Shown here in pieces: positions 11,327 through 57,351 of a DNA stretch of 64,000 nt. Made by a program: the position numbers and the translations under genes. The notes beneath the pieces were generated by a model. The model ran no database searches. It was not told the DNA's origin and was given only the letters and a program-made list of their open reading frames with translations. Source of the stretch: Aminobacter ciceronei (lineage in GTDB: Bacteria > Pseudomonadota > Alphaproteobacteria > Rhizobiales > Rhizobiaceae); NCBI RefSeq assembly GCF_014138625.1, contig NZ_JACJHY010000002.1:1-64000 (forward strand). The letters run 5' to 3'. Numbering within the stretch: position 1 is the stretch's first letter; each line of letters starts with the position of its first letter.

Positions 11327-11660
11327 GGGGAGAGAAGTGGAGGTTTCTGTTGCCAGGTACCTCCGAACCCCGCCTAGAAGTGCGAACCTCTAGGGCTTAA
11401 TTTGAAGCTATCGCACTGCATTAAGCAGCGAGACGTGCTTCCGCATAGTTGTCGTTTGCAACTACAAGTTTAGCCCGATAACGGTGGTACAATGCCGGGC
11501 AAAAGTCCGATCTTTACACCCTCGTCGATCCTATTTCGCCCCCAGCAAAAATCGTCGTTCGACTGTGCGACGACTTTTGGTGGAGGCGCCGGGTACCGCC
11601 CCCGGGTCCGAATGGCTTATTTCATCGGCAGTTTATCGCCATAGTCAGTCAAGCTGACGA
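11327..11660 (-). ncRNA. ssrA: Two-piece (circularly permuted) transfer-messenger RNA
   Basis: Rescues stalled ribosomes. The minus strand reads GCAAACGACAACTATGCGGA and onward to TAA, encoding the tag ANDNYAEARLAA (11421-11460). The acceptor piece comes first in the transcript and ends in CGCCTCCACCA at 11578. The coding piece starts GGGGGCG at 11543, which pairs with CGCCUCC to rebuild a 7-bp acceptor stem with ACCA overhang. The segment 11544-11577 is the processed loop. The outer boundaries (3' end of the coding piece near 11327, transcription start near 11660) are approximate. Permuted ssrA is a known feature of alphaproteobacteria. Confidence 0.9.
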
Positions 11661-11664
11661 CCCC

Positions 11665-11687
11665 AATATAGGGAGGCCGGCTGCAAA
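11665..11687 (-). promoter_or_regulatory. Probable ssrA promoter
   Basis: On the minus strand TATATT (11665-11670) lies about 7 bases before GGGGTCG, a likely transcript start. The -35 is weak: TTCCAT 17 bp upstream is the best spaced candidate. Confidence 0.35.
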
Positions 11688-11880
11688 ATGGAAGGTGGGA
11701 ACGGCAAGTCCTAACAGCCATTCGCAACAGATTCATGAAGCCACGCGAATACGCAGGGTTGACTCGCGTGATGCGCGAACCGAAGCTTCGGCCCGCTGGG
11801 GATGCCCGTGAAGTACCTGAACCGGTCTAAGCCGGGCCCCTGCGGGAGATGAGATCAATTCGTCGACGAGGGGAATTCAC

Positions 11881-26119: not shown

Positions 26120-26148
26120 TTGACAGGGCGCGGTGTCGCGCACTAACG
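26120..26148 (+). promoter_or_regulatory. Promoter of the ilvBH operon
   Basis: Consensus TTGACA (26120-26125), a 17-bp spacer, and CTAACG (26143-26148). The predicted transcript start near 26155 is only about three bases before the leader ATG. Confidence 0.7.
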
Positions 26149-26157
26149 TCCGCGCCC

Positions 26158-26211
26158 ATGAACAAGACACTCATTCTCGTAGTAGGAAGGCGCGTGGGCA
26201 AGGCGGTGTGA
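26158..26211 (+). CDS. Branched-chain amino acid leader peptide
   Basis: A 17-residue reading frame, MNKTLILVVGRRVGKAV, with Leu-Ile-Leu-Val-Val at positions 5-9, the three end products of the pathway it precedes. There is no ribosome binding site, and the predicted promoter places the transcript start almost at the ATG, so it would be a leaderless upstream frame. It lies before a terminator-like hairpin and the ilvB gene, exactly as an attenuation control peptide should. This is too short for standard gene callers. Confidence 0.75.
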   Translation: MNKTLILVVGRRVGKAV

Positions 26212-26268
26212 CCGCCGGGCGAAATCCCCCCATGCGCAAATGTGAAGGCTCCCTCGGGGGCCTTTTTT
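26190..26268 (+). terminator. ilv attenuator: upstream pairing region plus intrinsic terminator
   Basis: The terminator is AAGGCTCC (26245-26252), loop CTCG, GGGGCCTT (26257-26264), then a run of T to 26268. Upstream, GCGCGTGGG (26190-26198) can pair with CCCATGCGC (26229-26237), enclosing the small hairpin GGCGGT/ACCGCC at the leader stop codon. Freed C residues at 26226-26231 could instead pair with GGGGG of the terminator, acting as antiterminator. A ribosome stalled on the Val codons would mask 26190-26198. Confidence 0.7.
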
Positions 26269-26336
26269 ATTGCCCGAAACAGGACTAAACGAGCAGCAAC
26301 CGCCGAAAAACGGCGAAGGAAAGACGGGACGGACCG

Positions 26337-28121
26337 ATGAGCGGACATAGTGACAGCGGACGACGCGAAATGACCGGCGCCGAGATGGTGGTGCAGGCGC
26401 TGAAGGACAATGGCGTCAAGCACCTCTTCGGCTATCCCGGCGGCGCCGTCCTTCCGATCTATGACGAGCTGTTCCAGCAGGACGATGTCCAGCATATATT
26501 GGTGCGCCACGAGCAAGGCGCGGGCCATGCCGCCGAAGGTTATGCGCGCTCGACCGGCAAGGCCGGGGTGATGCTGGTGACCTCGGGGCCGGGCGCCACC
26601 AATGCAGTGACGCCGCTGCAGGACGCGCTGATGGATTCGATCCCGCTGGTCTGCATCACCGGCCAGGTGCCGACCTCGCTGATCGGCTCCGACGCCTTCC
26701 AGGAATGCGACACCGTCGGCATTACCCGGCCGTGCACCAAGCACAATTGGCTGGTGAAGGACGTCAACGAACTGGCCCGCATCCTGCACGAGGCCTTCCA
26801 TGTCGCCACCACCGGCCGTCCCGGCCCGGTCGTCGTCGACATCCCCAAGGACGTGCAGTTTGCCCGGGGCACCTACACACCGCCGCAGACTGCGCCGCGC
26901 ACCTCCTACCAGCCCAAGGTCCAGGGTGACCTGGAGAAGGTCAAGGAAGCCGTTGCCCTGATGGCCACCGCCAAGCGGCCGATCATCTATTCCGGCGGCG
27001 GCGTGGTGAATTCCGGCGCGGAAGCCAGCCACCTGCTGCGCGAGCTGGTCGATCTGACCGGCTTCCCGATCACCTCGACGCTGATGGGCCTGGGCGCCTA
27101 TCCGGCATCGGGCAAGAACTGGCTCGGCATGCTGGGCATGCACGGCAGCTACGAAGCCAACATGGCGATGCATGACTGCGACGTCATGGTCTGCATCGGT
27201 GCGCGTTTCGACGATCGCATCACCGGTCGCCTCAATGCGTTCTCGCCGAACTCGAAGAAGATCCACATCGATATCGACCCGTCGTCGATCAACAAGAACG
27301 TGCGTGCCGACGTGCCGATCCTGGGCGATGTCGGCCGCGTGCTGGAAGACATGGTGCGGCTGTGGCGGGCGACCGCCAAGGCGGACAAGAAGACGCTGTA
27401 TCCGTGGTGGGAGCAGATCGCCAAATGGCGCGCCCGCGACAGCTACGCATACAAGCACAACAGCGACGTGATCATGCCGCAATACGCGATCCAGCGGCTC
27501 TACGAGAACACCAAGCACCTCGACACCTACATCACGACAGAGGTCGGCCAGCACCAGATGTGGGCGGCCCAGCATTACGGCTTCGAAAAGCCGAACCGCT
27601 GGATGACGTCGGGCGGCCTGGGCACGATGGGTTACGGCCTGCCGGCTGCGCTCGGCGTGCAGATCGCGCATCCTGAATCGCTTGTCATCGACATCGCCGG
27701 CGACGCGTCGGTGCAGATGTGCATCCAGGAGATGAGCGCCGCCCTTCAGTACAATGCGCCGATCAAGGTGTTCATCCTCAACAATTCCTACATGGGCATG
27801 GTGCGCCAGTGGCAACAGCTGCTGCACGGCAATCGTCTGTCGCACTCCTACACCGAGGCGATGCCCGACTTCGTCAAGCTGGCGGAAGCCTATGGCGGCC
27901 ACGGCATTCGTTGCGACAAGCCGGACGAGCTCGACGACGCGATCAAGGAGATGATCTCGGTGAAGAAGGCGGTGATCTTCGATTGCCGCGTGGCAACGCT
28001 CGCCAACTGCTTCCCGATGATCCCGTCGGGCAAGGCGCATAACGAGATGCTGCTGCCGGACGAGGCGACCGACGAGGCTGTGGCCAACGCCATCGACGCC
28101 AAGGGCCGCGAACTGGTGTGA
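26337..28121 (+). CDS. ilvB: Acetolactate synthase, large catalytic subunit
   Basis: Condenses pyruvate with pyruvate or 2-oxobutyrate, the first step to valine, leucine and isoleucine. 594 residues: MTGAEMVVQALKDNGVKHLFGYPGGAVLPIYDEL (ThDP domain), HEQGAGHAAEGYARSTGKAGV with the catalytic Glu, a central domain, and GDASVQMCIQEMSAALQYNAPIKVFILNNSYMGMVRQWQ (ThDP/Mg motif). GGACGGACC precedes the ATG. It is controlled by the leader and attenuator upstream and cotranscribed with the regulatory subunit. Confidence 0.96.
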   Translation: MSGHSDSGRREMTGAEMVVQALKDNGVKHLFGYPGGAVLPIYDELFQQDDVQHILVRHEQGAGHAAEGYARSTGKAGVMLVTSGPGATNAVTPLQDALMDSIPLVCITGQVPTSLIGSDAFQECDTVGITRPCTKHNWLVKDVNELARILHEAFHVATTGRPGPVVVDIPKDVQFARGTYTPPQTAPRTSYQPKVQGDLEKVKEAVALMATAKRPIIYSGGGVVNSGAEASHLLRELVDLTGFPITSTLMGLGAYPASGKNWLGMLGMHGSYEANMAMHDCDVMVCIGARFDDRITGRLNAFSPNSKKIHIDIDPSSINKNVRADVPILGDVGRVLEDMVRLWRATAKADKKTLYPWWEQIAKWRARDSYAYKHNSDVIMPQYAIQRLYENTKHLDTYITTEVGQHQMWAAQHYGFEKPNRWMTSGGLGTMGYGLPAALGVQIAHPESLVIDIAGDASVQMCIQEMSAALQYNAPIKVFILNNSYMGMVRQWQQLLHGNRLSHSYTEAMPDFVKLAEAYGGHGIRCDKPDELDDAIKEMISVKKAVIFDCRVATLANCFPMIPSGKAHNEMLLPDEATDEAVANAIDAKGRELV

Positions 28122-28154: not shown

Positions 28155-28197
28155 AATCAACGAGTTGGCGCAAACGCCTGAGATCGAGATTCATCTT

Positions 28198-28770
28198 ATG
28201 AACGCACAGCTACAGCCCACCGGTTCGGCCTATTTCATCGCCAAGGAAACCGAGAAGCCGGAAACCCACACGCTATCGGTGCTGGTCGACAACGAACCGG
28301 GCGTGCTTGCCCGGGTCATCGGCCTGTTTTCCGGCCGCGGCTACAACATCGAAAGCCTCACTGTCTCCGAAACCGAACATGAGAAGCACCTGTCGCGCAT
28401 CACCATCGTCACGCGCGGCACGCCGCATGTGCTCGAGCAGATCAAGCACCAGCTCGAGCGCATCGTGCCGGTGCACCGCGTCGTCGACCTGACGGTTACG
28501 GCGCAGGAACTGGGCACCGGCGGCGCATTGGAACGCGAGCTGGCGCTGGTCAAGGTGTCGGGCACCGGTGACGCCCGCGTCGAGGCGCTGCGCCTGGCCG
28601 ACGCCTTCCGCGCCAAGGTGATCGACGCCAACACCGAGCATTTCATCTTCGAACTGACCGGCAAGGTATCGAAGATCGAGCAGTTCATCGCCATCATGAA
28701 GCCGCTCGGCCTGGTCGAGGTCTGCCGTACCGGCGTGGCGGCAATGAACCGCGGCCCGCAGGGGATGTGA
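28198..28770 (+). CDS. ilvH: Acetolactate synthase, small regulatory subunit
   Basis: 190 residues. HTLSVLVDNEPGVLARVIGLFSGRGYNIESLTV is the ACT domain, which binds valine for feedback inhibition. RITIVTRGTPHVLEQIKHQLERIVPVHRVVDLT and FELTGKVSKIEQFIAIMKPLGLVEVCRTGVAAMNRG complete the family. It activates and regulates IlvB. The start at 28198 is preferred to a TTG at 28165. The gap to ilvB is 76 bp and contains a hairpin, so the two could be expressed in unequal amounts. Confidence 0.94.
   Translation: MNAQLQPTGSAYFIAKETEKPETHTLSVLVDNEPGVLARVIGLFSGRGYNIESLTVSETEHEKHLSRITIVTRGTPHVLEQIKHQLERIVPVHRVVDLTVTAQELGTGGALERELALVKVSGTGDARVEALRLADAFRAKVIDANTEHFIFELTGKVSKIEQFIAIMKPLGLVEVCRTGVAAMNRGPQGM

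Positions 28771-56989: not shown

Positions 56990-57065
<76 letters not shown>

Positions 57066-57275: not shown

Positions 57276-57351
<76 letters not shown>

Follow-up and report, generated by a model that had tools for sequence, protein, structure and literature searches.

The Rfam family Atu_C8 (RF02502), a probable branched-chain amino acid attenuator ahead of ilvB in Rhizobiales

Described ilv attenuators and the Atu_C8 family

Branched-chain amino acid (BCAA) attenuation of ilvIH and ilvBN is already in print for the Alphaproteobacteria, as are a leaderless trpL (PMC10117765) and a near-leaderless ilv leader in Corynebacterium glutamicum. For Sinorhizobium meliloti, an ilvIH cis element appears in Table 3 of PMC2573895, which cites Vitreschak 2004, and in Caulobacter the attenuation of ilvBN has been described together with its leader frame (PMC4117421). 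The element presented below shares with these systems a BCAA leader peptide and a terminator ahead of the acetolactate synthase genes and differs from them in that no antiterminator was found in its family; the likeness is drawn from the published descriptions. In the account of C. glutamicum ilvBNC (PMC11857589), the transcript start is given one nucleotide from the leader start codon, the BCAA leader, as here, carries control codons, namely Leu CUU and Val GUA, and the antiterminator shares three nucleotides, GCC, with the base of the terminator. The ilvB1NC leader of Mycobacterium tuberculosis (PMC13236596) resembles the present one by its LVVI control codons, its short terminated RNA and its terminator before ilvB, whereas both anti-terminator and terminator folds are drawn in that source; again the resemblance is one of description. 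Finally, the S. meliloti trpL leader combines, according to PMC10117765 and PMC7298713, a leaderless leader frame with a terminated RNA, rnTrpL, that is itself a small RNA.

In the present work, a stretch of 64,000 nucleotides from Aminobacter ciceronei (the window; positions 1 to 64,000 of contig NZ_JACJHY010000002.1) was analysed. It contains, on the plus strand, an ilvB/ilvI gene for the acetolactate synthase large subunit, the regulated gene (26337..28121; NF006581, 1211.4 bits, cut-off 974), and ilvH for the small subunit (28165..28770; NF008864, 227.6 bits, cut-off 119), given as the longest frame with a provisional start codon. By IlvB, the closest named genomes are Aminobacter species, at 98% identity. 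The region upstream of ilvB (26160..26278, plus strand) matches Rfam RF02502 (Atu_C8) with 93.1 bits, above the gathering cut-off of 50, over model positions 1-122 and with an E-value of 8e-19 over the window, and it is thus the same element. Rfam files RF02502 as Gene; sRNA, a Rhizobiales small RNA, whereas a BCAA leader frame before ilvB/I is found here. No paper linking Atu_C8 to ilv was found in the open-licence literature. Elsewhere in the window, an Alphaproteobacterial tmRNA gene, of the two-piece type by its Rfam family, lies at 11336-11697 on the minus strand (306.9 bits), and two tRNA genes (56990-57062 and 57276-57348), both of 74.1 bits and with starts 286 bases apart, are perhaps a duplication.

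At E<=1e-3, RF02502 was found in 161 of 297 genomes sampled across the order, with 49 exceeding the Rfam cut-off; under strict filters at this E-value it was not detected in the other 136 sampled genomes, and none of 14 control genomes matched. The 150 sequences analysed below are the matches listed in this 297-genome search, weaker ones falling outside the list, and they include the window (L013), some near relatives and several second copies. In 146 of these 150 fetched matches, ilvB/ilvI lies downstream on the same strand within about 200 bases, and the remaining four precede a gene for a Bcr/CflA-family MFS transporter. The window's own genome holds no second copy above the cut-off, the next best hit reaching 21.6 bits. 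In some Rhizobium genomes a second copy (L032, L290) stands ahead of another ilvB homologue.

Leader frame, transcript start and hairpins

The preliminary description of this locus, made from the letters of the sequence, had placed there a 17-codon Leu/Ile/Val leader frame, and this frame is present: MNKTLILVVGRRVGKAV runs on the plus strand from the ATG at 26158-26160 to the stop codon TGA at 26209-26211 (26158..26211), with the control codons CTC ATT CTC GTA GTA at 26170-26184. It is recognised by sequence reading, by its conservation and by its codon bias. A run of at least three Ile/Leu/Val codons in a short frame at the 5' end was found in 149 of the 150 fetched matches, window included, as compared to 9.7% of shuffled sequences, and a run of at least four in 130 of 150 as compared to 1.8%, the frame being chosen for its run in real and shuffled sequences alike. 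In the longest Ile/Leu/Val run of every leader, GTA makes up 65% of the Val codons (1.8% in ilvB), CTT 54% of the Leu codons (7% in ilvB) and ATT 60% of the Ile codons (14.5% in ilvB). Furthermore, an alignment of the window with seven named relatives revealed that the run of Mesorhizobium erdmanii and M. sangaii is exactly one codon shorter than that of the window, in frame. Taken together, the run lengths, the codon bias and this in-frame loss of one codon fit the expectation for control codons.

Upstream of the frame, a promoter-like element is read directly from the letters at 26120..26148 on the plus strand, with TTGACA at 26120-26125, a 17-nt spacer and the -10-like CTAACG at 26143-26148, exactly as first described. 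These elements predict a transcript start at about 26155-26158. All eight aligned rows have TTGAC, the -10 TA and the ATG unchanged. A locus was counted as near-leaderless when its predicted start lay no more than about 7 nt from the start codon, with a -10 ending 6-10 nt upstream of that codon; the scan took TTGAC or five of the six bases of TTGACA at the set distance (test window 6-14 nt). This spacing is common to 40 of the 150 loci as compared to 2.9% of shuffled upstream sequences, and an SD-like (Shine-Dalgarno) site was found in 2 of these 40 loci as compared to 62 of the 110 others (shuffles 8.7%). On a tree of the 146 IlvB proteins (36 rows labelled near-leaderless, 62 SD-led and 48 unlabelled), six changes between the two labels are needed, as compared to 29 for shuffled labels, so that near-leaderless starts form blocks inside a single attenuator family, with the window in one of these blocks. 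Moreover, the first position of the RF02502 model falls on the G of the window's ATG, as it does for 12 of the 15 rows in the window's own family (f1), which agrees with a transcript start at or near the ATG. The near-leaderless spacing of the preliminary description is in this way supported by comparison, and the start itself is predicted from it.

It could be argued that the window's leader is not near-leaderless, that its true start is further upstream and that TTGACA occurs by chance. A strict sigma-70 scan indeed found no promoter at 26120..26148, CTAACG being a poor -10 with a weak fit to TATAAT, and the spacing scan of the 150 loci required no match to a -10. Such a start is nevertheless very improbable in view of the invariance of TTGAC and of the -10 TA in eight rows, of the excess of the spacing over shuffles together with the scarcity of SD-like sites at the loci that have it, and of the position at which the RF02502 model begins.

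Downstream of the control codons, the preliminary description had paired 26190-26198 with 26229-26237. Both arms, GCGCGTGGG and CCCATGCGC respectively, are present and are paired in the minimum-energy fold, forming the outer helix of a hairpin P (26190..26237, plus strand), whose inner hairpin holds the leader stop codon. Arm 1 of P begins 4-5 nt past the Ile/Leu/Val run in 112 of the 150 sequences. A terminator had also been proposed before ilvB, at 26245-26268; the terminator scan places an intrinsic hairpin T of nine pairs close by, at 26244-26265, with the tail TTTATT (26244..26273 with its T-run, plus strand), and the T-run is kept in 93 aligned rows. About ten bases past the T-run (ATTGCCCGAA, 26268-26278) are conserved in distant relatives despite lying beyond the terminator; judged by eye, the ATTGCCC downstream of the T-run might pair with P or with T.

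The covariation across the order that had been suggested as a check was sought in two alignments: the 150 sequences thinned at 80% identity to 93 rows and aligned by sequence only, and a subset of 59 rows hand-picked earlier. These alignments are independent tests, whereas P pairing scores taken from each sequence's own fold are circular; a count of sequences with a P-to-T gap of 0-9 nt is no evidence, since overlap is excluded by construction. The outer helix of P covaries in both. In all 93 rows 94.4% of its cells are paired, with two-sided changes in seven of the nine pairs, and P and T together score 0.362 for covariation; shuffling gives 0.191, with 0 of 500 shuffles attaining the observed value, and sliding never gives more than 0.141. 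In the 59-row subset, P is 97.9% paired and the score is 0.499 as compared to 0.240. T fits a common register less well, with 71.3% of its pairs in the 93 rows, because the terminator stem shifts between sequences. One measure of covariation, the tally of pairs changed on both sides, counts against the attenuator reading: the 12 such pairs of P and T in the 93 rows were equalled by 28 of 500 shuffles, and the count for the 59 rows was matched by 63 of 500.

Given the position before ilvB/ilvI, the Ile/Leu/Val runs, the codon bias and the covarying hairpin, a branched-chain amino acid attenuator is the best reading of the RF02502 family. The Rfam typing as Gene; sRNA could instead mean that the main product is a trans-acting small RNA, perhaps with a peptide as well, cis attenuation being secondary; in the leaderless trp attenuator of S. 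meliloti, according to PMC7298713 and PMC10117765, rnTrpL and its peptide do act in trans. A free small-RNA gene would need neither ilvB/I on the same strand behind 146 of 150 matches nor one kind of pump behind the other four, and the two-sided changes preserve the pairing of P and not its sequence. We therefore hold a mainly trans-acting product to be decidedly unlikely and retain the attenuator.

Ribosome position and the antiterminator question

With good confidence, the element before ilvB is read as a transcription attenuator that depends on the ribosome and responds to branched-chain amino acids. As suggested by the spacing, RNA polymerase would start 0-3 nt upstream of the leader AUG, so that a ribosome could initiate at the 5' end, no Shine-Dalgarno site being required. 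This ribosome would translate the Leu, Ile and Val codons, whose rarity is shown by the codon bias. With ample charged tRNA, it would reach the stop codon within P and transcription would stop at T, the terminated product being an RNA of about 115 nt, presumably the one filed as Atu_C8. When Ile/Leu/Val-tRNA is scarce, the ribosome would stall just upstream of P, leaving P whole or partly whole, and more polymerases would continue into ilvBH, as expected from the geometry and from known ilv attenuators. In this working model, P would survive most stalls, would be destroyed by the ribosome at the stop codon and would represent the read-through state.

The fate of P was computed for each ribosome position, the ribosome-free RNA being assumed to begin at the 13th base past the first base of the A codon. 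Over the family, the mean fraction of P outer pairs left was 0.98 for a ribosome on the first Ile/Leu/Val codon, 0.92 on the second, 0.68 on the penultimate, 0.40 on the last and 0.00 at the stop codon; in the window, the same four positions within the run left 100, 100, 78 and 44%. The availability of P thus separates starved from fed ribosomes, which argues, on the assumed footprint, for P as the starvation state. This is the opposite of the initial idea that a stalled ribosome masks the first arm, an idea that holds in part in the window, where the helix falls to 44% at the last codon and is intact at the first and second codons. Two results weigh against this model. Only 40% of P is left at the last Val codon and, by folding energies, T stays formed in every ribosome state (mean local pairing 0.96-0.98; 0-3 of 150 sequences below 0.5), so that the model appears to have no on-switch in folding.

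A classical four-segment attenuator would supply such a switch: arm 1 would be masked, and the freed C-run or arm 2 would pair with a terminator arm as an antiterminator. The preliminary description had proposed the C-run for this role and had called the attenuator complete. In the window, the C-run is indeed complementary to the terminator G-run. When the T 3' arm is absent, the T 5' arm pairs upstream with a mean probability of 0.48 for a ribosome at the last Ile/Leu/Val codon as compared to 0.14 at the first, and in the fold of the window P then grows outward by 3 bp (GGA/TCC) that reach into the T 5' arm. This extension would be of the C. glutamicum sort, as given in the cited account of that system.

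The question was addressed by comparing, for each ribosome position, the best duplex of the free RNA with the terminator 5' arm and loop to that of shuffled sequences. Over the 150 sequences, z averaged +0.58 for a ribosome on the first Ile/Leu/Val codon and +0.53 for one on the last, with 9 and 11 of 150, respectively, below -1. The controls behaved otherwise: at the first control codon, z ranged from -1.3 to -4.9 in seven E. coli leaders (thr, leu, trp, his, ilvL, ivbL and phe) and, at the first Trp codon, from -1.1 to -3.0 in eight trpE leaders of the order, so that all 15 lay below -1. At the last control codon, the values were +0.9 for ilvL, +0.8 for ivbL, -0.8 for thr and -0.3 to -3.4 for the trpE leaders. 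The latter, one of them from the window's genome, had been located via TIGR01815 and were scored with a near-identical script; among the nine trpE loci read, eight have a WW frame and L315 has none, three weaker loci (L316-L318) being left out. A separate trpL pattern search of the window's own genome and 20 relatives gave no convincing match. In this respect the RF02502 family differs from the S. meliloti trpL type, negative z being found in 8 of 8 trpE leaders of the order and not in the RF02502 family.

The other tests pointed in the same direction. No helix is conserved (best cell 0.10), and pairing reaches 0.49 as compared to 0.56-0.61 in shuffled sequences. The 70 column pairs that covary best include none that links arm 2 to a T column with an excess of standard pairs. 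The pairing of the T 5' arm again reaches 0.47 with the ribosome at the stop codon and is therefore non-discriminating, the corresponding value being 0-0.02 in six of the seven E. coli leaders and 0.6 in hisL. The outward extension of P into the T 5' arm, possible in the window, is below chance in the family, where it was found in 102 of 150 sequences as compared to 119-135 in ten shuffles of the 12 upstream bases, and it was set aside. The pairing between the C-run and the G-run was likewise rejected: five or more C are kept in four of the eight aligned rows, T pairing stays at 0.97-0.98 on the Ile/Leu/Val codons, and the 150 sequences gave no signal.

The RF02502 family thus lacks the signal seen in the controls, and the C-run pairing is neither conserved nor favoured; the attenuator cannot be called complete in the proposed sense, complementarity to the T 5' arm being no better than that of shuffled RNA. 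An antiterminator was not detected in the 150 sequences by this energy-based test, either as duplex enrichment or as a conserved helix, and a short or protein-aided one could escape it. A classical four-segment mechanism is in our view unlikely, and the element is filed as a variant, not a classical member, of the BCAA attenuators, one that lacks a detectable antiterminator and for which P is kept as the proposed read-through state.

Efflux-pump leaders and meaning of the family

The gene that follows the element where ilvB is not downstream encodes a Bcr/CflA-family MFS transporter (L014, 217.1 bits for a cut-off of 200.9; the truncated L033, at 147.7 bits, is below it). In the genus Rhizobium, RF02502 is present in 120 of 120 genomes, with two or three copies in 95, and 19 of 20 fetched second copies precede the transporter, the last one preceding an ilvB homologue. 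In family f6, where 108 of 121 genomes carry RF02502, 17 of 26 further loci stand before the transporter and 9 before ilvB. Of 22 plasmid records, 12 were fetched. Named plasmids, those of Rhizobium sp. BG4, Phyllobacterium sp. A18/5-2, R. gallicum and two R. etli, carry RF02502 above the cut-off before the pump. In all, the element was found before this pump clade at L014, L015, L033, L034, 17 of L245-L270, L271-L289, L350-L352, L355, L357, L381 and L390; at L352 and L390, both on R. etli plasmids, no short leader frame was seen at the usual place. In the window's genome, no orthologue of the leader-bearing pump was seen, the best match having 29% identity.

A second, shorter leader type precedes the same pump clade at L323, L326-L330, L336, L353 and L386-L388. 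Its plan is similar to that of the first: in these 11 aligned sequences, it consists of a Val-rich frame and a GCATGG/CCATGC stem that directly abuts CCCCCGA...TCGGGGG and a T-run, and its hosts include Burkholderia, Roseobacter and Leisingera. None of the four tested sequences of this type reached the RF02502 cut-off.

The pump scan covered 100 loci, and the tree 91 proteins, nine being omitted (six repeats of one gene and the cut-off L273, L334 and L336). Six rows were labelled by eye: L263, L352 and L390, which match RF02502, and L323, L327 and L330, leader frames being seen in the last three and in L263. A branch with an SH-aLRT support of 100 parts 67 rows, 56 of them labelled leader-bearing and 11 not, from 24 rows without a leader; it was the attenuator itself that led to many of the 67. 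Among the rows of the leader clade obtained by protein search, a leader and terminator were found by scan in 12 of 28 as compared to 0 of 24 sister rows (Fisher p 1.6e-4, with near-copies kept, L350 chosen after its attenuator showed, and two sister rows being one gene). Of the same 28 rows, L352 and L390 further match RF02502, and L323, L327 and L330 belong to the second type by eye. More distant pumps (L337-L348) have a leader in 0 of 12 cases, and the false-positive rate of the leader scan was 1 in 2000 shuffled upstream sequences.

These data provide a lead: in Alpha- and Betaproteobacteria, the genes of one Bcr/CflA-type MFS transporter clade appear often to lie downstream of Val-rich leader-terminator elements of two types. 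It is conceivable, and we propose it tentatively as something short of probable, that Val-rich attenuators with adjoining hairpins and no conserved antiterminator are a recurring efflux-pump switch, sensing a compound's harm and not the compound. In the open-licence literature, no paper was found on leader peptides before Bcr/CflA pumps. As a separate observation, in E. coli K-12 (L296) the emrD efflux pump gene lies near the ivbL-ilvBN attenuator operon on the opposite strand, which may be a coincidence.

If this proposal is true, any compound that leaves the cell short of Val/Ile/Leu-tRNA, for example valine itself or an agent that blocks BCAA synthesis or a tRNA synthetase, would raise enzyme and pump alike, and the pump clade would link drug-type efflux to amino acid starvation. 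For the family as a whole, the present reading would re-file a public "sRNA" family as a leader switch that governs BCAA synthesis throughout a large order of bacteria from soil and plants. The mixture of near-leaderless and Shine-Dalgarno-led frames in one family would make the role of the leaderless start testable by swapping, and the roughly 150 natural variants would offer material for studying how a leader-peptide switch can operate when no antiterminator is visible.
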